DNA of 64,000 nucleotides from Conus ventricosus (Eukaryota > Mollusca > Gastropoda > Neogastropoda > Conidae): contig CM031600.1 in the NCBI GenBank assembly GCA_018398815.1, positions 56,962,924-57,026,923 on the forward strand. The letters run 5' to 3'. The notes beneath the pieces are model-generated. The model made no database searches and was not told where the DNA came from. It worked only from the letters and a program-made list of their open reading frames with translations. How positions within the stretch are numbered: position 1 is the stretch's first letter; the number at the start of each line of letters is the position of its first letter. Positions 11,180-58,844 of this stretch are shown here, in pieces. The translations under genes were made by a program, and so were the position numbers.

Positions 11180-12034
11180 CGTGAACAAGCACCCGCACCC
11201 GAATGCACGTGCGTGTATGTAATATCTCTGTCCCTACTAAGGCATGAGTGCATTTTCAATGCAACGAAACCCCATTCTGTTGATTCTACTTGCAAACATA
11301 CCATCATACCGAAGAAACAAAAGAAGCAAACAAAACCGTGAAAAGAAAAGCAAAGAAAAACGAGCAAAGAATGAACAACAAGGAACACGGTATGGCTGGC
11401 TCAACAGGTCTGTGGACACTCGACGATCTTTTTACTCCATGCTAAGCTGTTTACGCTGCGCGTTTGGGGAGAGAAGCTGCGTCCAACACGGCTCGTACTT
11501 CTACTGTCAACGAGCAGAGCGTCAGACTGTCGCCCTCTCATTTTGTAGATTGATATTATAATAATAGTGTGTGTCACAAGTAACAAATCCAATGTGAAAT
11601 TCTGCGAGAACATGTAAGAGAAAGAAAGACAGAGTCTACATAGTGGTAAGTACGATAACATTCAACGCCATCTTGCGACAGGAGATCGGCTGATCAACGC
11701 ATCTATTCAAATAACACGTGCGTGCCGCTGTTGGCAGGCGTGAGCGTATATTATATACACAAGGGAGTGTATATGTGTATGGAAACGGTTCTTTTGACAC
11801 ACACAAGATGGCGGAAACGACTAATACTTGTTGCCAGCATCTCTAGTAATAAGCTGGAAATTGTGCTTGAAAATCATGGTGCGGCTTAGATCCAGTAGGT
11901 TAGGGGGTCGCGTAAACTCCGTGTCATCTGCAAACAGTGATCTGGTGGCCGAAAAATGTCAACAAAGACCAAGCTTAAGAAAAACAGTTTTGGAGCGAGC
12001 GCTGCTGGAAAGTGTGCAAACTGCCGAAGAGGGA

Positions 12035-12618
12035 CTGTCGCGGTCAAATTCGTTGCTCCAGTCAAATTCGTTGCTGGTATCCAGCAAAGGTTGCTGGTAT
12101 ACGACCTTAGCCAAGAATGACGTCATAACGTGTAGTTGCTAATGGTAACGGCAAAACTCCACAGTTTAAGACATTCATTGCCACTACTGATTTGGCACAC
12201 TGACCAACAATATTCTAGTAGTAGTAGTAGTAGTAGTAACAGTATCAGTCAATTTCATTGCCTGGTCAAATTCATTGCCACTACTGATTTGGCACAATGA
12301 CCAACAATATTCTAGTAGTAGTAGTAGTAGTAGTAGTAACAGTAGTAGCAGCAGGAGTGGTCAGGATATTGCACGGCAACGAATTTGACTAGAGCAACGA
12401 ATTTGACCGTATCAGTCAAATTCATTGCCTGGTCAAATTCAATGCCAATACTGCAAAATAATCGAGTAGTAGTAGTGGTTGTCTTAAACTGTGGAGTTTT
12501 GCCGTTGCCATTAGCAACTACACGTTATGACGTCATTCTTGGCTAAGGTCGTATACCAGCAACCTAAGCTGGTATACCAGCAACGAATTTGACTGAGCAA
12601 CGAATTTGACCGCGACAG
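12035..12618. mobile_element. Fold-back MITE, left copy
   Basis: The ends are CTGTCGCGG and CCGCGACAG. The terminal inverted repeats are about 140 bases and nearly identical. They contain several GCAACGAATTTGAC units and a shared block with AAGAATGACGTCATAACG. The centre holds AGT triplet repeats and tandem sub-repeats. No transposase is encoded. As it stands it is flanked by GGA on the left and GGC on the right, which is not a target duplication; the inversion finding explains this. The superfamily is not assigned. Confidence 0.85.
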
Positions 12619-12782
12619 GGCCTGCTCAGTTTTTCGATCGCTTCTTTTTGCTCACTGATGGTTATTTCGAGCCGCAATATTCTCTCACACAGCTTTCCAA
12701 TGATATTTGTCAATTTTTCAAAGTCACTCACCATGTCAGCCTGATTTATTGTGCGTGATTCACCTTCATGCTGATGAGGTCC
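12619..12782 (-). pseudogene. Inverted segment of LINE ORF1 (coiled coil)
   Basis: On the minus strand this 164-base segment reads as an open coiled-coil stretch containing NQADMVSDFEKLTN, KLCERILRLE and EKLSR. The rest of ORF1 on both sides reads on the plus strand. Turning the segment round places EKLSR in frame with PVPITAFVNSQ, which begins just after 12979. It therefore belongs to the same ORF1 and was flipped in place between two MITE copies. Confidence 0.75.
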
Positions 12783-12979
12783 CTGTCGCGGTCAAATTCG
12801 TTGCTCCGTCAATATTTCTGGTAGGAGTAGTAGTAGTAGTAACAGTAGTAGCAGCAGGAGTGGTGAGGATATTGCACGGCAACGAATTTGACTGGAGCAA
12901 CGAATTTGACCGTATCAGTCAACCTTTGCTGGTATACCAGCAACGAATTTGACTGGAGCAACGAATTTGACCGCGACAG
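12783..12979. mobile_element. Fold-back MITE, right copy (short)
   Basis: It has the same CTGTCGCGG and CCGCGACAG ends as the left copy, with the same AGT triplet region and GCAACGAATTTGAC units, but much of one arm is missing. Flanks are TCC on the left and GCC on the right. It is non-coding. Confidence 0.85.
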
Positions 12980-13133
12980 GCCCGTTCCGATAACAGCGTT
13001 TGTCAATAGTCAAACCCAGACGGACGTAACACCTACCTCTGGTTATCGCTCCTATGCGGACGCTGTCAAGGTAGTCCCAACGGTCCCTACATCCAAGATG
13101 ACAACTGAAAGGTCTGTAGGGCCGGTGGTCTAC

Positions 13134-13243
13134 GAAAGAAAGATAAAAAACAAAAACAAAACAAAGATAAGATAAGATAATGTTGCTTATAGCCCAGCCG
13201 ATCGCAAAGGGCCACATCAGGGCTGTCACAAACAAAACAAAAG
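13134..13243 (+). mobile_element. Short SINE-like insertion in LINE ORF1
   Basis: The insert holds ATGTTGCTTATAGCCCAGCC and GGGCCACATCAGGGCTGTCA, preceded by an A-rich stretch. AAAGAAA occurs on both sides and may be the target duplication. Two more copies of the core are at about 38203-38290 and 57743-57830. It interrupts ORF1 between YERK and the esterase region and introduces a stop. Confidence 0.65.
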
Positions 13244-14152
13244 AAATAGCCAAAGAACAGTACGAAAATGACGTCACTACCAATTACGTAGATAAAGTGA
13301 CACCAAATAGAACGCCGAAGTTAACCCCAAATCAATGCCGGCAAAAAAATACGATTCCCTCAGATACTCCCCGTGTCCTTATTCTTCATGACTCTACGAT
13401 GAACCGAGTCAATCCTACACGCCTGGAATGGCTTATGGACTACAAGTGGCTGCAAGGAAAGCTTTCAACCATTGACAACATCAAGAAGGTTGCTGAAGAA
13501 GCAAGTCAATCGCTGCATCCTGCTCCAGATTGTGTGGTTCTGCACACAGGATTCAACGACCTTAAAGGGAAAGACGCCGCTGTGTGCGGAAAAGACATGG
13601 CTTCTGCTGTGATATCTGTCCAGCAAATCTTTCCCCAGTCCCACGTTGTGTGCAGCAAGTCAATCCCTGTCAAATCACAACATCTTGAAGCAAAACGGGT
13701 GATATATAATGCGCACACCTACTCTGAATTAACTGGAAAAAATACCAAAAATGTTTCTCATGTGGGTTACGACAACATCCAGAAGTCGTATCACCTTCAA
13801 GATGATCTCCATCCAAATGGCGAAGGAGCACGGCTACTGGCAAGAAACCTAGGCCGTCATCTACATCGCCTCTTCTGGGAGCGACCACGACGCAGACAAA
13901 AGAGGTGGAAGATTCAGCGGCACACGGGCATTCAACTGCAGTCCCTGGCCTTCCAGACCCCACGGATCCTTACCACCGCCAGGAATGTATGGTCTACCTC
14001 CTCCCGCGGCATTCCGCCATAGACCATAGGCATCGTCGGAAAATACCCTTAGTCCTGACTAGTGATTAGTTTTTCTTTTTTCACAAGTAACACATTGACT
14101 TATAGTTATAGACAATTATGAAGAAACAAGTATATAACAATTTGAAAATATT

Positions 14153-14376
14153 CAGGACAGACACGTCGGGGTCTTGGGAAGGAGAGTGTCTGGATGACAT
14201 GGAACTCGGGTTTTCAGACTGCGTCCCATGCTCAGTTGGGCAGGAGAGAAACCGTTGGGGAAGGGGAGTGTTGCGATACATGAGCAAGCCAAGGTACTCA
14301 TCATCGCACTTCTTGATGAGGTTCTTAATGGTTTGAACTGCGCGTTCAACCTCACCATTGGATTGGGCGTAGTGAG
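14153..14376 (-). mobile_element. Displaced duplicate of Gypsy integrase segment
   Basis: This fragment repeats 15304-15537 of the Gypsy integrase region almost exactly. Differences are mainly G-run lengths plus about one substitution. It is joined on the left to LINE sequence at AATATT and on the right to the LTR at a shared GTGAAG. It lies outside the LTR, where host flank would be expected. Confidence 0.8.
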
Positions 14377-14533
14377 GTGAAGTAATAACAAAACAAGGCA
14401 GCCAAAAAACCAGCATCCATCTACTTTCAGTTTCTGACGTCAAACCGAAAAGCGCGTCACACAAAAGCGCGTCATACATAAGCTGTATCCGGTTGAAAAG
14501 TGAAAGTGAAACTAGTTTTAACTTTACACTACA
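14377..14533 (-). repeat. Gypsy 3' LTR
   Basis: The sequence matches 19034-19192 throughout, except for the missing outermost base and one A-run shorter by one. On the minus strand it begins TGTAGTGTAAAG and follows the polypurine tract. Its outer end has been lost into the displaced integrase fragment. Confidence 0.85.
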
Positions 14534-14547
14534 TCTCCCTTTTCCAG
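14534..14547 (-). other. Polypurine tract of Gypsy element
   Basis: On the minus strand CTGGAAAAGGGAGA lies directly before the TGTAGTG start of the 3' LTR. This is the position and composition expected for the plus-strand DNA primer of an LTR retrotransposon. Confidence 0.8.
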
Positions 14548-14806
14548 AAGAACAATTTAAAGTTCTCAAACGTGTGATAAGACATATCCAGAATGACTAG
14601 AATGAGCACTGAGTATTTATGAAAATAATACTGCATGTAAGTTTGTACAATAGCACTACTTTGGTTCTGGGTCTCGCACCAGAGTCTTTCAATTGATTTC
14701 ATGAATGCGCCTTTCTTTTCTTTTCTTTTCTTTTTTTTATAAAATTATCAAAGAAATCATTTCAAATTTTCAAGTTCTGGTCTTTTAACAATGTTCAATA
14801 AGGCGC

Positions 14807-16016
14807 TCAGGCTTGTGCGTTGTTCTGGCGGATCTTCTCGTCTGCGACATCTGTGGCCCTGGGGTCATTGAAGATGGCAGGCTCTGGGAAGGAGTTGGCA
14901 TCATGGCTGTCTTGACTGGCGTCGAACCATCGTGACAGCAGGTAGGCCCTTGGCAGGTGAGCAGGGAGGAGGTTGTGCACTGGGAGTGGTGCACGTGGAA
15001 CCAAGAAGTGTGGAGGTGCGTTGAAAGGGAAAGGGGAAGGAGGAAGGTGGTTGCCTTGCTGGGAAAGCAAACAAGGCTCGTACAGCTTCCTGGTCATCTG
15101 CTGATTTCGGCGAATAAACTCCACCGTCGGATGTCTGGATGATGAGACTTCTGGAGTATCATGACGATTGATGACAATACCCTCCTTCTTCACGTCGGGG
15201 ATCCACACCTTGTTGCCAGATGAGATGTCTTCTGGAGCAACAACTTTATGTCTTCTGTCGTAGCTGGTTTTCATCTTCTCTCGGTATTCTTTTCTCTCTT
15301 CTTCAGGACAGACACGTCGGGGGTCTTGGGAAGGAGAGTGTCTGGATGACATGGAACTCGGTTTTCAGACTGTGTCCCATGCTCAGTTGGGCAGGAGAGA
15401 AACCGTTGGGAAGGGGAGTGTTGCGATACATGAGCAAGCCAAGGTACTCATCATCGCACTTCTTGATGAGGTTCTTAATGGTTTGAACTGCGCGTTCAAC
15501 CTCACCATTGGATTGGGCGTAGTGAGGTGAAGAGGTGATATGCTCGAAGTTCCAGGATTGAGCAAATCTGGAGAATTCTTCGGCTGCAAACTGTGGTCCA
15601 TTGTCGGAAACTAGAGTGTCCGGAATGCCATGGCGACTGAAGACTTTCTTCATTCTGTTGACTGTCTCTGCGCTGGCGATCTTGTTCATGAGCACGATCT
15701 CAACGTCCCGTGAGTAGTAGTCAACAACTATGAGGAACTGCTTGCCCTCATGCTGAAAGAAGTCAGCTGCAACTCTAGACCAAGGACGCTCAGGGAAGGG
15801 CGTACCTTTCATGGGCTCCACTCTGGCTTTCCTGTTTTTGGCACAGTCAGGGCAAGTCTTGACCATGATGTCAATGTCTTGGGACAGCCCTGGCCACCAC
15901 ACAGAGTTTGCCGCGTTTTCCTTCGTCTTGTTGACACCTTGATGACCATCATGTAGGTGTCGAAGGACATCTTGTCGGAGTGACGGAGGGATGACTAGTC
16001 GCGTACCTCTCAGCAA
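14807..16016 (-). pseudogene. Gypsy integrase and C-terminal tail (frame-shifted)
   Basis: The frame from 16016 down to 15303 contains the HHCC zinc region (HDGHQGVNKTK and later CPDC). The catalytic core has VVDYYS, SDNGPQF and GEVERAV, so the DDE residues are present. YRNTPLPNGFSPAQLSMG is the usual Gypsy integrase end. A shift near 15303-15350 moves the tail into another frame, which runs on to 14807 with basic YDRRHK and a proline-rich end. Given the near-identical LTRs, the shift may be a sequencing error and not decay. Confidence 0.85.
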
Positions 16017-16905
16017 GAGACTGTTGTTGACAGACAGGAAACTCTGCTCGTTGAAGTAGGTTTGAGAGGCTTGTTGAGAGTCCTCTTCTCTGGCCAGCCA
16101 TTTTGGACGTAGCGCATGACCAGTTTGAGGATGTCATCCTTCTGGAGTTCTGACCGGATCTCTTCCAGCCTGTGGTCAGAAGCTGGTAAGGTCAGCAGGA
16201 CAGCATTGACATATGCCTCTGCTTGGCAGGTCAGGTCTTTGTCCGCAGAATCTGTGGTAGGCAAAGGTGCTCTGGACAGAGTGTCAGCGGTATAGAGTTC
16301 TTTGCCAGGGACATGGACAATGTCAAAAGAATACCGCATCAGCCTCATCCTGAAGCGCTGGATGCGGACAGGAAGTTCATCGATGAGCTTGTAGAGAACA
16401 GAGGACAAGAGGCTTGTGGTCTGTTTCTACCCGAAAGGACATGCCAACCAACAAATCTGACCAATGTTCAAGGCTCCAGGTGACTGCAAGAGCCTCCTTT
16501 TCGATCTGTGCATACCGCTGCTCGGTCGCTGTGAGGGAACGGCTTGCGTATGCAACAGGATGGAGTTGACCGTTGTCTTGGCGTTGAAGACATACAGCTC
16601 CAAGACCGTAGCTACTGGAGTCTGCCGAGATGACGGTCTCACGCTCGGGACTGTACAGTGCAAGAGTCTCTGGTGAGGCAAGGTCCTTCTTGAGAGTGTC
16701 GAAGGCACCCTGTTGTTCTGGTCCCCAGATCCACGTTGACTCTTTGCGCAGCAGGTCTCGCAGTGGCTTAGACTTTTCAGCAAGGTTTGGCAGGAACTTC
16801 ATCAGCTGGTTCACCATGCCCAAAAATCTTCGGATGTCAGCCACGTTCTTCGGCCTCCATCTCCATGATGGCCTTCACCTTGGCAGGGTCTTTCCTCAGG
16901 CCGCC
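16010..16905 (-). pseudogene. Gypsy RNase H and connection region (frame-shifted)
   Basis: From about 16905 down: VADIRRFLGMVNQ (connection), then the RNase H-like domain with SADSSSYGLGAV, AYASRSLT, EKEALAVTWSLEHW and VETDHKPL, then RMRLMRYSFDIVHVPGK and ADTLSRA. These are the standard Gypsy blocks in order. The frame changes at about 16910 and again at about 16380-16400. Between 16016 and 16100 another shift precedes the integrase zinc region. Confidence 0.85.
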
Positions 16906-16916
16906 GACTGAAGAAT

Positions 16917-17560
16917 CTACGATCTGGCCAAGGTACTCGAGCTGCGTTTGGCGAACTCGAACTTGTCGGGGTTGAGGGTCAGGTTTTCCTGGGAGAGCCT
17001 CTCCAGGACAGCATGAAGCCTGGCGTCGTGCTCAGCTTTGTCTTTGCCAACGACAAGGATGTCGTCCATATGACAAAGAACACCCTCAAGGCCATGGAGG
17101 ATGTTGTCCATTTTCTTCTGGAAGTACTCCGGCGCGGACGTAATTCCATAGGGCAGACGCTTGAATTTGAAGCGCCCAAAGGGAGTGATGAACGTGGTGA
17201 GCTCGGAACTTGCCTCGTCAAGCACGAGCTGATGGAATCCAGAGTTTGCATCCAACTTGGAATACACGTTGCCCTTGGAGATCTTGCTGAGAGTCTCCTC
17301 CACAGATGGCATGGCGTAGACCTCTCTCTTCACGCTCTTGTTGAGGCGGGTCAGGTCGACGCAGATACGAACATTGCCGTTGGATTTGGGCACAACAACG
17401 ATTGGAGCGCACCAATCCGTCGGAGTGTCCACCGGTTCGATGACGTCACCTTCCACCATCTCGTTCAGCTGAGCTTCCACCTTCTTCAGGAGGGTAAGGG
17501 AACACGCCTGGGCACCGTTTGAGCGAACGGCTTGGCGTCGTCCTTGAGGAGGATGGCTTG
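16917..17560 (-). pseudogene. Gypsy reverse transcriptase
   Basis: The frame starting at 17480 shows WCAPIVVVPKSNG, RICVDLTRLN, KLDANSGFHQ (motif A Asp present), FKRLPYGITSAPEYFQ and CHMDDILVVG (active-site MDD at residues 138-140 of this frame). It ends early at 16917 through a frame shift after KFEFAKR. The preceding linker with FPKLFTGLGKLGG is in the adjacent protease frame. Confidence 0.88.
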
Positions 17561-18091
17561 CTCACCACCCAGTTTACCCAGTCCGGTGAACAACTTGGGG
17601 AACTGACGCTTGACGTCGCTGGATGAAGCGAAGCTGGCCTTCGCCGTCTGCTGGGCAGGCTGACCACCAGTAGGCAAGGATCTGATTGCCCTGATGGTAA
17701 AGGCACCTGGGATGTCGCTGATGAGCCCCAGCTTCCTGATGGCAGGCGCACCAAGTAGGAGTTTAGATGCCTTGACGATGTAGACCTTCTCACGAACACG
17801 TGTACGACCAAGGTTGAGGTCGAGGTTGACGCACCCCTTCACCTCCAGAGGCTGGTCACCAGGCCCAAGGAGAGTGCGGTCAGGCTCTTGGAGTGTCCCA
17901 AACGCTGGCTTGAAAATGTGGTCGGGCATCACAGACACTTGGGCCCCAGTGTCTATACACCAGGTCAGCTCGCGTGATCCCACCTTCAGCTTGATGTGCC
18001 ACCCAGGGTCAGCAGGCACTGATGACCTCACCGGAACGGCTGCTGGAGTGACAGTTCTTGCACGCACGCCATTACTACTGACGCCACCCAC
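17486..18091 (-). pseudogene. Gypsy aspartic protease
   Basis: The frame contains WCIDTGAQVSVMP (DTG catalytic triad at about 17953-17945) and LLLGAPAIRKLGL, the usual second protease block. It continues into the link to the reverse transcriptase. The overlap with gag in another frame at 18028-18091 fits a Gypsy gag-pol arrangement. Confidence 0.85.
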
Positions 18092-18970
18092 GAAAACTGG
18101 ACCCCATCTTCAGACTGTTCCGCTTGGTTCTCGTGGACGACCTCATGGACTGACGCTGAGCTTCTACAAACGATGGCGTAGTGGCCTATCTTGGTGCACT
18201 TTCTGCAACAAACCTTCACTGCCGGGCAGTTCTTCTTGCCGGGAGGATGCTTGCCATTGCAGTAGCCGCACTTCTGGCCAGCTGGCGAGGCCTTGGTGTC
18301 ACCTTTCTTGCCACCTGCGCCACCTTTGTATGCACTCTGTCGCATGTTACCTTGAAAACTTCTCTGGAGGGCACCCACACTGGCTGTCTTGCTTCTTTCA
18401 GTTCATTCTTAGCCAGTTCCCTCATGGCGAGAATGTCAGTGGTCTTCTGTAAGGTAAGCCTTGGACCAACGTCGTACAGTTTCAGCTTGGCGGTGTCATC
18501 TTTGCATGAAAACACCAGCTTGTCTCTGATCATTGTGTCACAGTTGTCAAACTTACAAGCTGCTGCCTTGTCTTTGACTAACCTGAGCCAACAATCAAAC
18601 GACTGGGAAGGCTCCCTGTGCAGATGGAACCAAAACTGTTCGCGCACATCAACTGCGGGTCTCTACGTTGAAAAAAGCATCATACTTCCCCAGAACAGTG
18701 TTGTAATTGGTCTTGCTTTCTGCTGGCAGGGGCTGGTCGGCATTGTCTGGGTTAGGTCGTTCCCCCAAAACACAAAATTGGAGAAGATCTCGAGTCCTTC
18801 ATCACCAATATGGTTTAATAAAAGTCCAACCTTCACCGCGTCCGGCTTGGCACTGGCACCCGTTGCTTGAAGGAAAATGTCGAAACGAAGTTTCCACTTC
18901 TCCATGCCGCCGCTGGATTTGCACTAACCACAAATGAGTCGGGAGTCCTCACATAAATTGACTCAGCCAT
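18028..18970 (-). pseudogene. Gypsy gag (frame-shifted)
   Basis: The likely start is ATG at 18970 (MAESIYVRTPDSFVV). A shift at about 18897 leads to EKWKLRFDIFLQATGASAK and LLLNHIGDEGLEIF, typical Mag-type capsid sequence. Further shifts lead to REPSQSFDCWLRLVKDKA and then the nucleocapsid. Two zinc knuckles are visible: CGYCNGKHPPGKKNC and CRKCTKIGHYAIVC (the second is CX2CX4HX4C). Three frames are needed to cover the protein. Confidence 0.8.
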
Positions 18971-19015
18971 CACGTACGTCTATTCCAGTTCAAAAATACG
19001 TAGGTCTGTTTCAAG

Positions 19016-19033
19016 TTCACAATTCTGACACCA
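19016..19033 (-). other. Primer-binding site of Gypsy element
   Basis: On the minus strand TGGTGTCAGAATTGTGAA follows the last CA of the 5' LTR directly. TGGTGTCAGAA is a common Gypsy primer site complementary to a tRNA 3' end. The first eleven bases match this pattern and the remainder has drifted. Confidence 0.7.
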
Positions 19034-19192
19034 TGTGAAGTAATAACAAAAACAAGGCAGCCAAAAAACCAGCATCCATCTACTTTCAGTTTCTGACGTC
19101 AAACCGAAAAGCGCGTCACACAAAAGCGCGTCATACATAAGCTGTATCCGGTTGAAAAGTGAAAGTGAAACTAGTTTTAACTTTACACTACA
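19034..19192 (-). repeat. Gypsy 5' LTR
   Basis: A 159-base LTR that on the plus strand runs TGTGAAGTAATAAC...CTTTACACTACA. Internal features include duplicated AAAAGCGCGTCA units. It borders LINE sequence (ACTTATAG) on its right. Confidence 0.88.
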
Positions 19193-19212
19193 ACTTATAG
19201 TTATAGACAATT

Positions 19213-22157
19213 ATGAAGAAACAAGTATATAACAATTTGAAAATATTACAGTGGAATGCCAGATCAATCTGCAAATTTTCTGCCCTTTCAAATTACGTAC
19301 AACAGGGAAATTATAGTGTATTAGCGCTTCAATCGCTAAATGTTGAAATATCAAAGCTTCCAAATATTAAGAATTTCTACTAATCCACCACTAACTAACG
19401 TAAATATTTCAAATGAAAAGGTGCAGTGCACTATTTTGTTAGATGTGATTTACAATTTTCCACAAGTTTCTATGCCCAGGACTACAAGATTCTGAAGACT
19501 GCTTTTCTGTAGGGGCTGCGATAAAAGTTAATGACACCTCAGTTTATAATGTCATTTCAGTGTATTATCCCTACGGCCCCAAAGATGATAATACGGACTG
19601 GCTGAAAAACATCGATTTCACTTCTAAGAAATGGATCATTCTTGGCGATTTTAATGCTCATGCTCCTTTTTGGGATACAGAATGTTTAAAAGTGTCTTCT
19701 AACAGATTTCTAGAAAATATTGTTGATTCCAGTCTAATCTTGTTAAATGATGGTCGAGTTACTCGAATCCCAGATGTATCAACACACAAACCAGCTGCTA
19801 TAGACTTGTTGCTGGTATCTCCAAATTTAGCAAATTATTGCGATTGGTCCACTGGAGAAGACTGCCTTGGAAGTGATCACCTTCCAATCACAATAAATTT
19901 GAATGATGAAATTAGCACTGACATATCAGATGTTGAAGACAAAATCCCAAATTATAATTATAAATTAGCCAATTGGTAAGCTTTTGCAAATAGTCTGATG
20001 ACATATGATACAACGTCGGTTGAAGATGACAACATTGATGTTTTTTATTCAAATTTTGCCAAAATATTGATTCAAGCTGCTGATAGTGCTATTCCAAGGA
20101 GTAGATATAGGAAACTTGGTAAATTTTTCGGTAACGTTGGTGGACTTAAGAATGCCGATTAGCTGTAAAATCAAAACGTCAGGCTTTTAAAAGGTGGATC
20201 CGAAATAAGACTGAAGAAAATTTTCAGACTATGAAACAGGAAAAAAACAACTGTAATAAAATAATTGCTCAAGCAAAAAAGGCATACTGGGATGAATTTT
20301 GTAAGAAGGAAATTACAGAATCAAAAGACATGTTTAAAGTGTGGAAAAAAGTAAAAGAAATGAAAAATGGTCACAAAAAACAACTTTACCCAATTAAGCT
20401 AGAAAAGGAATTTCCTACCTCTTATGAAAAAGCTGAGGCTTTTGTTGATTTCTTTTCTCAGAATAGTTTGTCTTCATCTCTACAGGCAGAAAATGAGCAA
20501 TATAGATTGAAAGAGGAACAAAAAGAGGACTATTGGGATCCTGATCCAGTTGCAGATCATTTTTTGAATTCTCCTACCAGGTCTCAGAATTGTCAGAAGC
20601 TTTATCATCAGTCTCATCTCAGAACTCAGCAGTTGGTCTAGATGGCATTTCTTATCAGATGCTATGTCATCTGCCGTCTTCCTGGAAACATGTACTACTC
20701 TCGTTGTTCCAAAAATGTTGGAATAATGGCGCTCTCCCTAAAATTTGGAAGAAGTTCGGTGGTCATACCAGTTCTGAAAGAAGGCAAGATAAATACTTCT
20801 GTAAGCAGTTATAGACCAATCTCTTTGTCTTCTCATGTCGGGAAACTTCTGGAAAAAAATTGTATTGAAGCGTCTGATGTACTATTGTGAAAAGAACTAT
20901 TTGCTTCCAGTCCAGCAGGCTGGTTTTAGAAAGGGTCGATGCACTACAGACCATCTTGTAAAACTTACAAATCAAATAAAAAAACAGTTTGCCCACAGAA
21001 AAAGTACGATGGCTACATTTTTTTATGTTAAAAAAGCCTACAACAGTGTTTGGCATGCTAGGTTGCTTTACAAATTAAAAAAGATTGGTATTTCAGGCAA
21101 CATGTATTCTTACATAAAAGGTTTCTTAATGGACAGACATATATGTACAAGAATTGGTAAGATGTATTCTTCCTTCAGGTACATTAATATGGGTATCCCC
21201 CAAGGATCAATTATTGCCCCAATTTTGTTTTCAGTTCTCCTTTATGATCTTCCTTCTGCGCTGTCCAAAAATATCCATTTAGTTCAGTATGCTGATGACA
21301 TCGCAGTATGGATGCATACTAGTTTAAGAAAACATACAAAGAGGAGGTCAATTAATCATGTGCAGAAGTCATATCAATATGAATTGGACAATTTATGGGC
21401 ATATATAAAAGAAAATGGGCTAGAATTATCGGGTGAAAAAACCTGTTTAATGTTGTTTAACAATGGAGAAAATCCGCCTGTACTCCCATCCTTGAATATA
21501 GATGGCACTTTGTTGCAATATCAGAAATCAGTCAATTTTTGGGGAGTCCTTTTAACACCAAAACTAAGCTGGAAAATGCACATAGAAAAATTGTTATCTA
21601 AAGCTAGAACTAGACTAAATTTTCTTAAAATTGTTAATTGCCAACCTTGGGGTCAAAATACTAAAACCCTTTTGCATCTGTCTTTGGCTCTTGTCCACTC
21701 CAAGTTAAAGTATGGACAAGAAGTTTACTTTTCAGCGCCAAAGTATCTTTTAAAAAAGTTACAAAGTATTGACAGTAAAGCTATTAAATTAGGTTTAGGA
21801 GTTCCTGTACAAACAAATACATATAAGAGCTACAAAGCAGCGAATATCTTACCTTTATCGGAGCAAAGATGTCTAAAAGTAGCCAAATATGTGATTCGAA
21901 GCTTGTCAGTAAAAAATTCAGTTGCTGATGATATTTTTGTAAATTCGAATAAAGATTTTCCAAGTAGAGCCAAGGAAATTTCATATATTCAGCCAATAAT
22001 GAATTATACCGCTGAACTTATGTCTAAGTGTAATGTAGATTTAACATCGATTCCAGAGTTCCCCACGGTTCCGATGATGCCTCCTTGGGAACACTTGAGT
22101 GGAAATTTTGATTATGAGTATATGGTCTCAAAGAAAAAAGAAAATATTACATTCTAG
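19213..22157 (+). pseudogene. LINE ORF2: APE-type endonuclease and reverse transcriptase
   Basis: The start ATG at 19213 gives MKKQVYNNLKI then QWNARS. The endonuclease continues in shifted frames with IILGDFNAH, AIDLLLVSP and GSDHLPI. The reverse transcriptase shows YRPISLSSHVGK (about 20810), then from 20835 QAGFRKGRCTTDHL, GIPQGSIIAPILFSVLLYDLP and QYADDIAVW. The thumb region ends at 22157. Motif A reads FFYVKKAYNSVWH where an Asp is normal at the Tyr, so the copy looks catalytically dead. Stops near 19380, 19979, 20160 and 20640 also mark decay. The left neighbour is a Gypsy LTR. Confidence 0.85.
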
Positions 22158-22927
22158 TGAACGATGTGAAAGAACACATAGAAAATTCATATTCTAATCA
22201 CCTTAAAATCTATACTGATGGTTCAGTTATGGACACAGCTGACAGCGGTTCTGGTTTCGTTATTCCAAGTCTGAATATAGGAAAACATTTTCATCTCGGA
22301 AAGGGATTTTCAATATTCACTGCAGAACTGTATGCTATACTGATGGCTTTATTTTGTGTATATAGTACTCCAATATCCTTTTTTAGTGTGCTGTTTTGTG
22401 TTGATTCCAAGTCTGTTTTGCTAGCACTGCAAACTTGGGATTGTAAGGCCAGAAAAGATTTGTTATATGAAATAAGGTACCTGATACACTGTATTATGTC
22501 TCAGGGTATAATCGTAGACTTCTGTTGGATTCCTTCACATTGTGGTCTCAGAGGGAATGAAATAGCAGATAATCTAGCTAAACTTGGTGCACAAAACTGT
22601 TCAGAATGTGTGCTAAATTTGCCATTACATCCTTCCAAGTGTGAAATACTATTCAACCTGGAACACTACGTTTACAAAACCTTTTTCTGTGAAAAATGCT
22701 ACACACTGCCTAGCTGCTCACGCCATCTTGCTAAGATTATCACAAAATTAAGGCTGAACACATGGAAGACCAAATTTTCTCCTGAAATTGTGTGTGTCTG
22801 TGGAAAATTCATCTCTGTGCACCACCTTCTATTAGATTGTCCAGTTTTAACTAAATGTATAAGGCGAAAGGTATCAATCTTGACAAATATGAAAATGAGA
22901 GTCAAGTTCTGTCTGACTCATGCATAA
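22157..22927 (+). pseudogene. LINE ORF2 C-terminal RNase H domain
   Basis: An open stretch of about 255 codons overlaps the reverse transcriptase frame end. It has all RNase H blocks: KIYTDGSV, FTAELYAILMAL, FCVDSKSVLLAL and WIPSHCGLRGNEIADNLAKLGA. Beyond it lies a zinc-knuckle-like CVCG, SVHHLLLDCP. RNase H after the reverse transcriptase places the element in the I-like group of LINEs. The four acidic residues are kept, so this domain is the best preserved part. A decayed copy lies on the minus strand at 28965-29905. Confidence 0.88.
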
Positions 22928-37846: not shown

Positions 37847-38621
37847 GTGTGTGTGCACATACACAGGCATACACACACAAAGATGCGCATACACATGAAT
37901 GCACATGCACACGCACATGTGTGTATGTCCATATACACAGGCAGACATACATGTATACACACATATATACAGTACATGTAGACTCATGTAGGAACCTGAG
38001 TGCATGCAGGAGCATACTCACACAAGCTGATAGATCACACACACAAATATACATGCACACACATGCATGCACACCTGCCCACACACACACACACACACAC
38101 AGAGTGACATATACATGCACAGTGCATGTATACACTGGCACGCACACAGGTCTATGCCAACCAACCTGTGCTCACACACACTCGCACAAGAGAGAGAGAG
38201 GTAATGTTGCTTATAAATATAACCCAGCCGACCGCAGAGGGCCACATCAGGGCTGTCAACACGTTAAAATGAACTCACAAGTCGCACTCACACAAACACC
38301 AATACATACATGTATACAATGATAATAATGGTGCAGACAATGTTACTTATGTTGTTAGGTAGGTACCCAAGGTCTGACCAGCATGCTGGGCTATTTCGCA
38401 GGTTAGACATCTGGTAAGTTGTATCCATGAGACCCTGTTTCTAAATCCTCTTATCTTACGTCATTCATTAAATAATCCATCAGCTGTAAATCATACGCGG
38501 TGTGGTCTCCAAACTTAGCGGACGTGGTGTAGCATTTATAGACTAACATGCATGCAGTGACACCTCCTTGATGAAACCCAACTGTATTGCCTCACACGGC
38601 CATGATCAATCCTGGGGCCAG

Positions 38622-57400: not shown

Positions 57401-58844
57401 AGAGAATTCTTTATTCTTCCTGCTAACAAAAAAAAAAACCAACATCGCACAATCCTTGTTGCAGGAGAATGTGTCGCTGATCAAGGAGATCAACGACCTG
57501 CGTCGTGAGCTGAAGATGTGTCGTACACACATCCACGACATGGAGGCGGCACTGGGCCTGCACAGCAAGAAGAACAAGAAGGGCAGCGACACCACCGCCC
57601 TGGCTCAGCTGGCCGCCAAACAGCCCTCTGCCATCATGGAGCAAAAGTTGGATGAACAGGTCAGTGAGCACGTGAACAGTGGGCAGGTGGCCTTATGGAC
57701 AATGCGTTTACCTAGGAAGCGAGGTACGATAAGGTTAGAAGGTTATGTTGCTTATAGCCCAGCTGAGTGTAAAGGGCTATATTAGGGCTGTCACCACGTT
57801 GAAGTCAACTCAGAAGTCATTCATTCACACACCCTTTAAAATACACCTTCTAAAAACACTAGAAATTTTTGTTAAAAATGTTTGTACTGTAAAATCCGAG
57901 ATCAGATGAAAAATGTTAATCTCTTTCAGAAATTCAAAGGTCACATCAGGTGGAACATCTCTGAACAAGGTTTTCATGGAGTCTGCTGTAAAATGTTTAT
58001 GTCTCACATCATGCAAATCCCAACATTCTAAAAGAATGTTTCATTGTGAATGGTACATGACTAGAATTTCATGAGTCTAGAGGTCCAGTCTCACGAGGCG
58101 CTTTTTTCTTCTCTTCCTGTTCACTGCATTTTATTAAGTAGTAGTGCGAGCGCCAGTACATCAGATGGGGAGGTAAACGGAGGTCCCGTGTACAGCATGA
58201 ATGTATCATACATGAAAGAACTCATGGCAACAAGGGAGTTGTCCCTGAGCAAAGTATGTAGGATAATCCACTTTGATAGATGTGGATATACGAACAAAAG
58301 TCATATGGGAGGCATTGAATTTCACTCTTGAGAAATGTGTTGTGAGAATGCAGATACACAACTCTTTCAAAACAGGCATGACATCAGCACCAACACGCAT
58401 TGTTTTGGATAGTGTAAATAATCATTAATTTTAAAAAATACTGCTAAACTGAATCTATATATTTAGTATTTGTGTGTGTTCGTGAGTGTCAGAAAGCATG
58501 TCAGCGTGTGCATGTGTGTGTGTGTGTGTGTGCATGCACGCACGCTTTATACCCGACACTGTGAAAGAAGAAGAGAGCCAAATGGGAGACTGGAAAAGGA
58601 AGAAAGAAAGTGTATGAAATAGAAAAGAGAGAGAGAGAGACAGACAGAGAGAGAGAGAGAGAGAGCATTTTAAAAAGCAATGACACTCATCCACCCTCTG
58701 TGCTGTGCTGTTAACCAGGTCAAGATCATCGACATGCAGCGCATGGAGATCAAGCGGTTACGACAAGAGAATCAAGACCTGGAAAAGAATGGTTCTCGTC
58801 CTCCTTCAGGTCCAGCACTCCCCCCTATGCAAACCGTCATGTAG
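41295..58844 (+). CDS. CFAP57: CFAP57 (WDR65), cilia- and flagella-associated protein 57
   Basis: Coding exons: 41318-41602, 42176-42364, 43110-43350, 44297-44450, 44957-45112, 45780-45919, 46224-46389, 47097-47422, 48106-48278, 49517-49678, 50739-50894, 51698-51791, 52404-52594, 53312-53485, 53968-54125, 54665-54808, 55474-55590, 55914-56045, 56513-56656, 57465-57659, 58719-58844. About 1208 residues against 1250 in human. Exons 1-10 encode WD40 repeats (about residues 1-665; [37 protein letters not shown]). Exons 11-21 encode a long coiled coil ([37 protein letters not shown]). The protein is axonemal, linked to inner dynein arm assembly and ciliary beating. Four one-base losses break the frame at about 43200, 47231, 48237 and 54080, but conserved sequence resumes at once, so I read them as sequencing errors. 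Intron 6 appears to use a GC donor. Flanking X-box suggests RFX control. Confidence 0.95.
43383..43449. repeat. (GA)n microsatellite in CFAP57 intron 3
   Basis: A pure GA run of about 60 bases lies 33 bases after the exon 3 donor (GTCAGT at 43351). Confidence 0.95.
44017..44281 (+). repeat. Dispersed CTGAAGA...GGTC repeat, copy 2, internally duplicated
   Basis: The core TTGAAGAAGACCTAAGAGG is followed by TCAAAACGCATTGTGATTTG and a tail ending CTCCGCCTGCAGCCGTCTCA. The leading 66 bases (GTGACTGCTCGTTCTTCATT ... GACGAAGACC) occur twice in tandem. The copy ends within about 15 bases of the exon 4 acceptor. Confidence 0.7.
44479..44600. repeat. (GT)n and (GA)n after CFAP57 exon 4
   Basis: A GT run of about 45 bases starts 29 bases after the exon 4 donor, followed by TGTGTATGT variants and a short GA run. 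Confidence 0.9.
45292..45486. repeat. AC arrays in CFAP57 intron 5
   Basis: AC runs with ATATAT and CAAACAT interruptions, the longest at 45432-45485. No exon is present. Confidence 0.95.
47783..47970 (+). repeat. Dispersed CTGAAGA repeat, copy 3
   Basis: GCTCGTTCTTCATTTTCAAC, CTTGCCTGAAGAAACCAAAG, AGGTGGAAACGCCTC and a tail ending CTCCACCTGCAGTCACCTCC align with copy 2 along its length. It sits in CFAP57 intron 8. Confidence 0.7.
48600..49265. repeat. Decayed tandem satellite, about 75-base period
   Basis: Degenerate monomers carry TGTTCATCTGCAGAA-like starts at about 48608, 48682, 48758, 48836, 48921, 48994 and 49121. Each is followed by CACTAACAAACA, GAATTCA, a CCTTGAGTGCTCTTCA-like segment and AATAAACACAT. 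It fills most of CFAP57 intron 9. I count at least seven units. Confidence 0.7.
50239..50580. repeat. AC and GT arrays in CFAP57 intron 10
   Basis: An AC run at 50240-50302 and GT runs at 50435-50457 and 50475-50526, followed by GTGC variants, are separated by about 130 unique bases. AC and GT arrays so near each other form a potential long hairpin. Confidence 0.95.
51443..51612. repeat. AC array in CFAP57 intron 11
   Basis: A long AC run (51443-51511) with CATGCATGCAC and ACGCATGCGCG interruptions afterwards. Confidence 0.95.
51734..51948 (+). repeat. Partial tandem duplication of CFAP57 exon 12 with its donor
   Basis: 51734-51805 holds the 3' part of exon 12, its donor GTAAGG and the start of the intron. 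51876-51948 repeats it with about two base changes (GAGCTG versus CAGCTT). A GT array of about 65 bases sits between. The second copy keeps the donor but has only a weak AG before it (TGTGTGGAG). Confidence 0.88.
51950..52062. repeat. GT arrays after duplicated exon piece
   Basis: GT runs with GATATAGATAGATA and TTGTGT interruptions. They are followed by unique intron sequence and, at 52205-52310, AC runs around a stretch of about 24 C. Confidence 0.9.
52655..52698 (+). pseudogene. Ghost of CFAP57 exon 11 in intron 13
   Basis: TTCATTGTGCCCACGAAGCA, TCCATGCAGACCTC and ACTCGCGAG match the acceptor and first bases of exon 11 (50723-50769: CATTGTGTCCACAG, AACGCATCCATGGCAGACC, TCAACTCGCGAG). Differences are mostly one-base losses. 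The copy is out of context, lacks an intact AG and is not expected to be spliced. Confidence 0.6.
52712..52870 (-). repeat. Dispersed CTGAAGA repeat, copy 4
   Basis: On the minus strand: GTTGCTCGTTCTTCGTTTTC, TGTGCCTGAAGAAGACCTAA, GAAATGGAAATGCATCATG, TTTTGTCCTGTAATC. The order matches copies 2 and 3. It lies in CFAP57 intron 13, immediately after the exon 11 ghost. Confidence 0.65.
53641..53678. repeat. (GT)n in CFAP57 intron 14
   Basis: A GT array preceded by a GCATGCATGCATGCAT alternating segment at 53614-53636. The intron 15 arrays at 54262-54322 (AC), 54414-54433 (GT) and 54443-54500 (AC) are similar. Confidence 0.9.
56285..56470. repeat. Three-unit tandem repeat in CFAP57 intron 18
   Basis: Units share CTTCAGAAA, CTCAT-ATGGACACCTAAGAAA and TACAC-AATCCCAGCT. 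Period is about 57 bases and the third unit is more diverged. Confidence 0.75.
57190..57365. repeat. Duplicated segment, copy in CFAP57 intron 19
   Basis: Shared with 59260-59435: a poly-A run followed by GGAAATA, then ACTTGCATCAGAAAATGTT, ACCACTAGTAAA, TCTATCTATTCTTTACT and ACAGTGCG. Identity is interrupted by small indels. Both copies have the same orientation. Confidence 0.7.
57735..57830 (+). repeat. Short SINE-like core repeat, copy 3
   Basis: TTATGTTGCTTATAGCCCAG, TAAAGGGCTATATTAGGGCT and GTCACCACGTTGAAGTCAAC resemble the copies at 13179 and 38203. It is in CFAP57 intron 20 and is the most complete on its 3' side (CTCAGAAGTCATTCATTCAC). Confidence 0.65.

Follow-up and report, generated by a model that had tools for sequence, protein, structure and literature searches.

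In the window, a stretch of 64,000 nucleotides of the Conus ventricosus genome, a 166-base piece of a LINE ORF1 is inverted relative to the rest of the ORF1. This piece lies between two fold-back elements of one family, M1 and M2, which interrupt the plus-strand ORF1 between 12036 and 12978 (Table 1). The piece stands in forward order in other copies of the LINE, both insertion sites are empty there, the 5-bp target duplications are exchanged between the two breakpoints, and members of one element family occupy both. The locus is an unusually complete record, since the two target sites, the two half-duplications that were displaced and twelve sister copies without the inversion are all legible in one genome. 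A sequence-only reading of the same DNA had placed two fold-back elements with like ends here, and the same 17 bases were indeed found at all four M1/M2 ends (4 window matches at ≤2 mismatches against 0 expected). The segment between M1 and M2, a putative coiled coil, has 54 residues without a stop on the minus strand; turned round, it forms one open frame with both ORF1 flanks, so that the in-frame joining read from the letters holds across both joints. The earlier finding is right in substance and wrong on the length of the duplication.

Table 1. Features of the interrupted LINE ORF1, in window coordinates.
Feature	Position	Strand	Remarks
LINE ORF1, 5' part, beginning with its first ATG (by reading) and ending at the left-hand insertion	11876..12035	+	In-frame continuation into the turned segment; copies elsewhere up to 98% identical
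GGGAC, outer target-duplication copy of the left-hand insertion	12031..12035	+	Single copy at the empty site; 5-bp rule
Element M1, 582 bp, TGTCGCGG...CCGCGACA	12036..12617	.	B-type left end (CTCCAG), A-type right end (CTCAG)
GGGCC (reverse complement of GGCCC), displaced target copy of the right-hand insertion	12618..12622	-	
Inverted ORF1 segment, 166 bp including both displaced target copies	12618..12783	-	Identified by translation; forward in 12/12 fetched LINE copies and in P0002
GTCCC (reverse complement of GGGAC), displaced target copy of the left-hand insertion	12779..12783	-	
Element M2, 195 bp, family of M1	12784..12978	.	Right end type B; left end CTCCG, not clearly A or B
GGCCC, outer target-duplication copy of the right-hand insertion	12979..12983	+	Single copy at the empty site
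Remaining LINE ORF1, weak GDSL/SGNH-hydrolase similarity	12984..14022	+	PF13472, E 0.00023, below its curated cut-off

It is the empty sites of other LINE copies that support the conclusion of an inversion, since the footprints alone are ambiguous. For the orientation, a 523-base empty-site query, joined in the flipped order, was compared with the same genome assembly (3.52 Gb), scoring 40 of 70 candidates. Both joints were crossed in one alignment, in the flipped order, by 34 of the 41 matches listed, the best having 98% identity, and 30 of those 34 among the matches listed covered almost all of the query, starting at base 8 or earlier and reaching at least base 504. In the best 12 of the 41 listed, which were fetched, the segment is forward and the M1/M2 inserts are absent in all 12, as the sequence-only reading had expected of uninterrupted ORF1 copies. 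At the first empty site GGGAC is intact in 10 of these best 12 copies, and at the second GGCCC is intact in 10 of 12; the copies without the intact 5-mer have a substitution or small deletions at that site.

In the closest LINE copies the segment is about as similar as the flank on either side of it (left flank 178/182, segment 159/161 and right flank 175/178 in L059), and the segment is therefore taken as native to this LINE copy. Its derivation from another LINE copy was judged unlikely on the same closest copies; in L066, L068 and L069, three of the 12, the segment is less alike than the flanks (148/161, 148/161 and 147/160, respectively). Additionally, the segment is forward in P0002, one of the ORF1 homologues drawn from the protein collection (43% over the alignment), and the more distant homologues P0003 and P0004 (31-32%) align weakly across it. 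A protein search with a 160-residue piece gave 59 candidates, with none at threshold. At ≤2 mismatches, the assembly contains a single instance of the joint of M1 with the reversed segment, the one inside the window; the empty-site listing omitted the window's own copy, and it is this single-joint search, made with the M1 joint only, that bears on further inverted copies. No un-inverted chromosome bearing both insertions was found in the assembly, the joint query having matched nothing but the M2 joint inside the window, since an un-inverted M1 joint would be identical to it in sequence. For this reason the order of events given below is a reconstruction.

In the present order the 5-bp flanks are GGGAC/GGGCC for M1 and GTCCC/GGCCC for M2, with 4 of 5 bases matching in each, and with the segment turned back they become GGGAC/GGGAC and GGCCC/GGCCC, with 5 of 5 in each. 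GGGAC is one base away from GGGCC, the reverse complement of GGCCC, which explains the 4/5 match of the present order. The earlier statement that neither element has a target duplication as it stands is true at 3 bp only; taken alone, with 4/5 as standing, the footprints are ambiguous.

The target duplication of the M1/M2 family is 5 bp, and not the 3 bp (GGA, GCC) proposed before. In a sister family, a perfect 5-bp duplication was found in 15 of 19 complete copies (14 perfect ones when L089, a run of G, is left out) against 1 of 342 mismatched pairings, and a perfect duplication in 1/19 at each of 3, 4 and 6 bp; 20 copies had been fetched for this count, and L096, being incomplete, was left out. 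Similarly, 17 other end pairs of the M1/M2 family have a perfect 5-bp duplication in 4 cases and at most one mismatch in 9, against 1/272 and 16/272 of the mismatched pairings. A 3-bp duplication was rejected, as it is perfect in 1/17 and 1/19 of these sets against 4/17 and 15/19 at 5 bp. The 17 pairs were hand-picked (14 from 13 of 20 loci, L045 of 30 loci, and L071 and L074 of 7), leaving out L011, L012, L014, L017, L025, L026 and L027, where two clear ends could not be made out; of the two candidate left ends of L018, one was used, and the matches of the L013 flanks and of L089, which are runs of G, carry little meaning. The base outside TGTCGCGG varies among the other copies (T, G, A or C). 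The 'CTGTCGCGG' previously given as the element end therefore includes flank, its first C and last G belonging to the target, and the true ends are TGTCGCGG...CCGCGACA.

At least two of the five flank bases differ in 8 of the 17 end pairs, so a missing duplication is by itself no proof of inversion in the M1/M2 family. Flanks mismatched at 5 bp were seen in the family copies L010, L018, L022, L024, L045 and L074; those of L045 match at a 3-base offset and those of L074 at 4 bp.

Here it is proposed that a single LINE ORF1 copy received two non-autonomous fold-back transposons of one family in separate insertions, at sites about 160 bp from each other, with 5 bp of target duplicated at each (GGGAC at one, GGCCC at the other). 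The inverted terminal arms of the two would then have undergone an exchange, by crossing-over or by a polymerase template switch, that flipped the intervening DNA and carried one half of each target duplication across, giving the present exchanged footprints. Taking crossing-over and template switching together, a flip by exchange between the inverted ends of two independently inserted elements is the probable origin of the arrangement; we infer that both elements were in place before the flip and that the exchange took place in the terminal arms. The exact inverted runs are 26 bp in the inner arms (23 of the elements and 3 of the flanks) and 46 bp in the outer arms (45 and 1). Exact arms of this length seem short for ordinary homologous recombination, unless the elements were once longer. 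M1 runs from a B end to an A end, and M2 ends in B, its left end being not clearly A. The direct orientation of stretches of about 116 bp common to M1 and M2 was dropped as evidence, as both orientations recur in L009.

Recombination between inverted copies, as proposed by the sequence-only reading, stands as the likeliest of several mechanisms, and not as the only one, since template switching and the transposition of a hybrid element would leave the same flanks. According to PMC2775673, the copies left by ectopic exchange are chimeric and those left by hybrid-element insertion are identical at birth; the M1/M2 ends are identical over 23-45 bp, with no site informative on chimerism seen in the possible exchange tracts. 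In yeast genes, template switching is reported to flip spacers between arms of more than 9 bp, with 2-5 bases changed (PMC8604942). Those spacers are far shorter than 166 bp, which counts against template switching at M1/M2.

In hybrid-element (aberrant) transposition, opposite ends of copies on sister chromatids would insert nearby and flip the DNA between them; one original element would leave a copy at each breakpoint, and M1 and M2 would then shrink by different internal deletions. Exchanged duplications and mutually inverted copies are what this mechanism predicts, as set out in PMC2775673, and both M1 and M2 are derivable by deletions from an L009-like element. The newborn copies should, however, be identical, whereas M1 has 582 bp and M2 195 bp, which would need at least three later deletions (probably one in M1 and two in M2). 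A private change common to M1 and M2 was not seen, over a comparable stretch of only about 58 bp. The differences in length and internal deletions favour two separate insertions, and a hybrid-element origin is considered unlikely.

Exchange between the elements would be dispensable if a transposase had cut both facing element ends and the freed 166-bp piece had been end-joined backwards. This gives the same order and leaves M1 in its canonical B-to-A form, as seen; it also requires two simultaneous one-ended cuts. Moreover, both new joints are base-exact, whereas small footprints are usual where ends are joined after excision. Such a cut and rejoining is regarded as very improbable. An assembly or scaffolding artefact in this repeat-rich stretch might be suspected from the palindromic and repeated arms, but the M1 joint is unique and lies within a chromosome-sized contig (C6, 106 Mb), and two exact exchanged 5-bp duplications would hardly be expected from such an error, which makes it scarcely credible. 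Reversed-end transposition into a freed circle was rejected: it needs a direct repeat at the inner ends, which read GGGCC and GTCCC.

The flip by exchange between two insertions is a known kind of event, that of the Galileo type, at a very small scale. In the Galileo inversions of Drosophila buzzatii (2j, 2q7 and 2z3; Delprat et al. 2009, PMC2775673), two copies of one long-armed DNA transposon lie at the breakpoints, the target duplications are exchanged, and the empty sites are single-copy in uninverted DNA, all as at M1/M2. The Galileo inversions are chromosomal, with 7-bp duplications and copies shown to be chimeric, whereas the M1/M2 inversion is of 166 bp inside a broken LINE, with 5-bp duplications and ends too short to read chimerism. 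The likeness is further limited in that the M1/M2 empty sites are read in paralogous LINE copies and not in an allelic chromosome. Template-switch spacer inversion (Abraham and Hazkani-Covo 2021, PMC8604942) also flips a spacer between short inverted arms with exact joints; in that study, however, spacers of ≤70 bp were searched and the arms were not transposon ends, in contrast to the 166 bp between transposon ends at M1/M2. All that the M1/M2 event changed is the order within a LINE copy that was already broken. What the event suggests is that short transposon ends separated by only about 166 bp are able to flip the DNA in between, and, since the M1/M2 family and the LINE are both multi-copy, a genome-wide count could give the rate of such micro-inversions.

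Among the fetched copies of the M1/M2 family, L074 is the shortest, at no more than 163 bp, and L013 the longest, at about 6 kb. The long copies contain many GTCGCGGTCAAATTCGTTGC-like units in both orientations, which fits fold-back arms that are long, internally repetitive and of variable length. One end of a family member is usually CTCAG (type A) and the other CTCCAG (type B), with L071 having B at both; the interior of this 3.4-kb candidate copy reads N. M1 could derive by a single internal deletion from an element like the 2.4-kb one in L009, whose B end matches positions 1-138 of M1 at 99% and whose A end matches positions 138-582 at 97%. M2 matches two parts of the L009 B side with its positions 27-139 and 128-195, and may have come from an L009-like element by two deletions that left the B side. 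No other whole-length match to M2 was found among 40 scored of 822 candidates; further searches of the genome scored 40 candidates of 614, 792 and 540.

The family ends read TGTCG, in keeping with TGTNR. In this and in their long inverted repeats they resemble Ginger1 and Ginger2-TDD (Bao et al. 2010, PMC2836005). Ginger1 has 4-bp targets of CCGG/CCGT, whereas those of the M1/M2 family are of 5 bp and mostly GC-rich, and Ginger2 prefers AT-rich targets (RTATAY), unlike the targets seen here. Sister-family targets are, e.g., GGGCC, AGGCC, CCGCC and GGCTT, with GTACA (L078) as the most AT-rich perfect one. The M1/M2 family is not filed under Ginger/TDD on this evidence. The family end pattern was not found in viral contigs, and no paper with the end and sub-repeat letters of the M1/M2 family was found in the open-access literature. 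In a wider but unlikely picture, a family apparently without a name, with TGTCGCGG ends, GC-rich targets of 5 bp, arms growing to kilobase arrays and an integrase-like transposase, would act as a recurrent engine of local inversion; the end pairs with at least two differing flank bases could then mark more exchanges of the M1/M2 kind.

The sister MITE family (L078-L097; L021:3771-4043) has its first 15 bases in common with the M1/M2 family and copies of 265-294 bp, 19 of the 20 fetched being complete. Of 540 candidates for it 40 were scored, and the 40 full-length places listed are all identical over 77 bp, which suggests recent activity. At L021:2059-4043, two family members lie 9 bp apart, neither of them with matching 5-bp flanks; this is perhaps another rearranged pair.

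Other repeats also interrupt the LINE. Within the ORF1, a short repeat with GATAA units at 13171-13225 looks like a retroelement tail, with similar stretches at 38218-38258 and 57739-57794. Between ORF1 and ORF2 the window contains a minus-strand LTR-type element (14098-19251) with RVT_1 and integrase domains, flanked by a 59-bp duplicated stretch (14098-14155 / 19193-19251, 98%) that is unusually long for an LTR element. In a 233-bp alignment, 14151-14382 repeats the integrase region of this element (15302-15532, 98%), and this repeat lies outside another, of 158 bp, that is present on each side (14377-14533 and 19035-19192). The LINE ORF2 follows at 19449-22927 on the plus strand, with an endonuclease domain and several open frames, the later of which look by eye like reverse transcriptase and RNase H.
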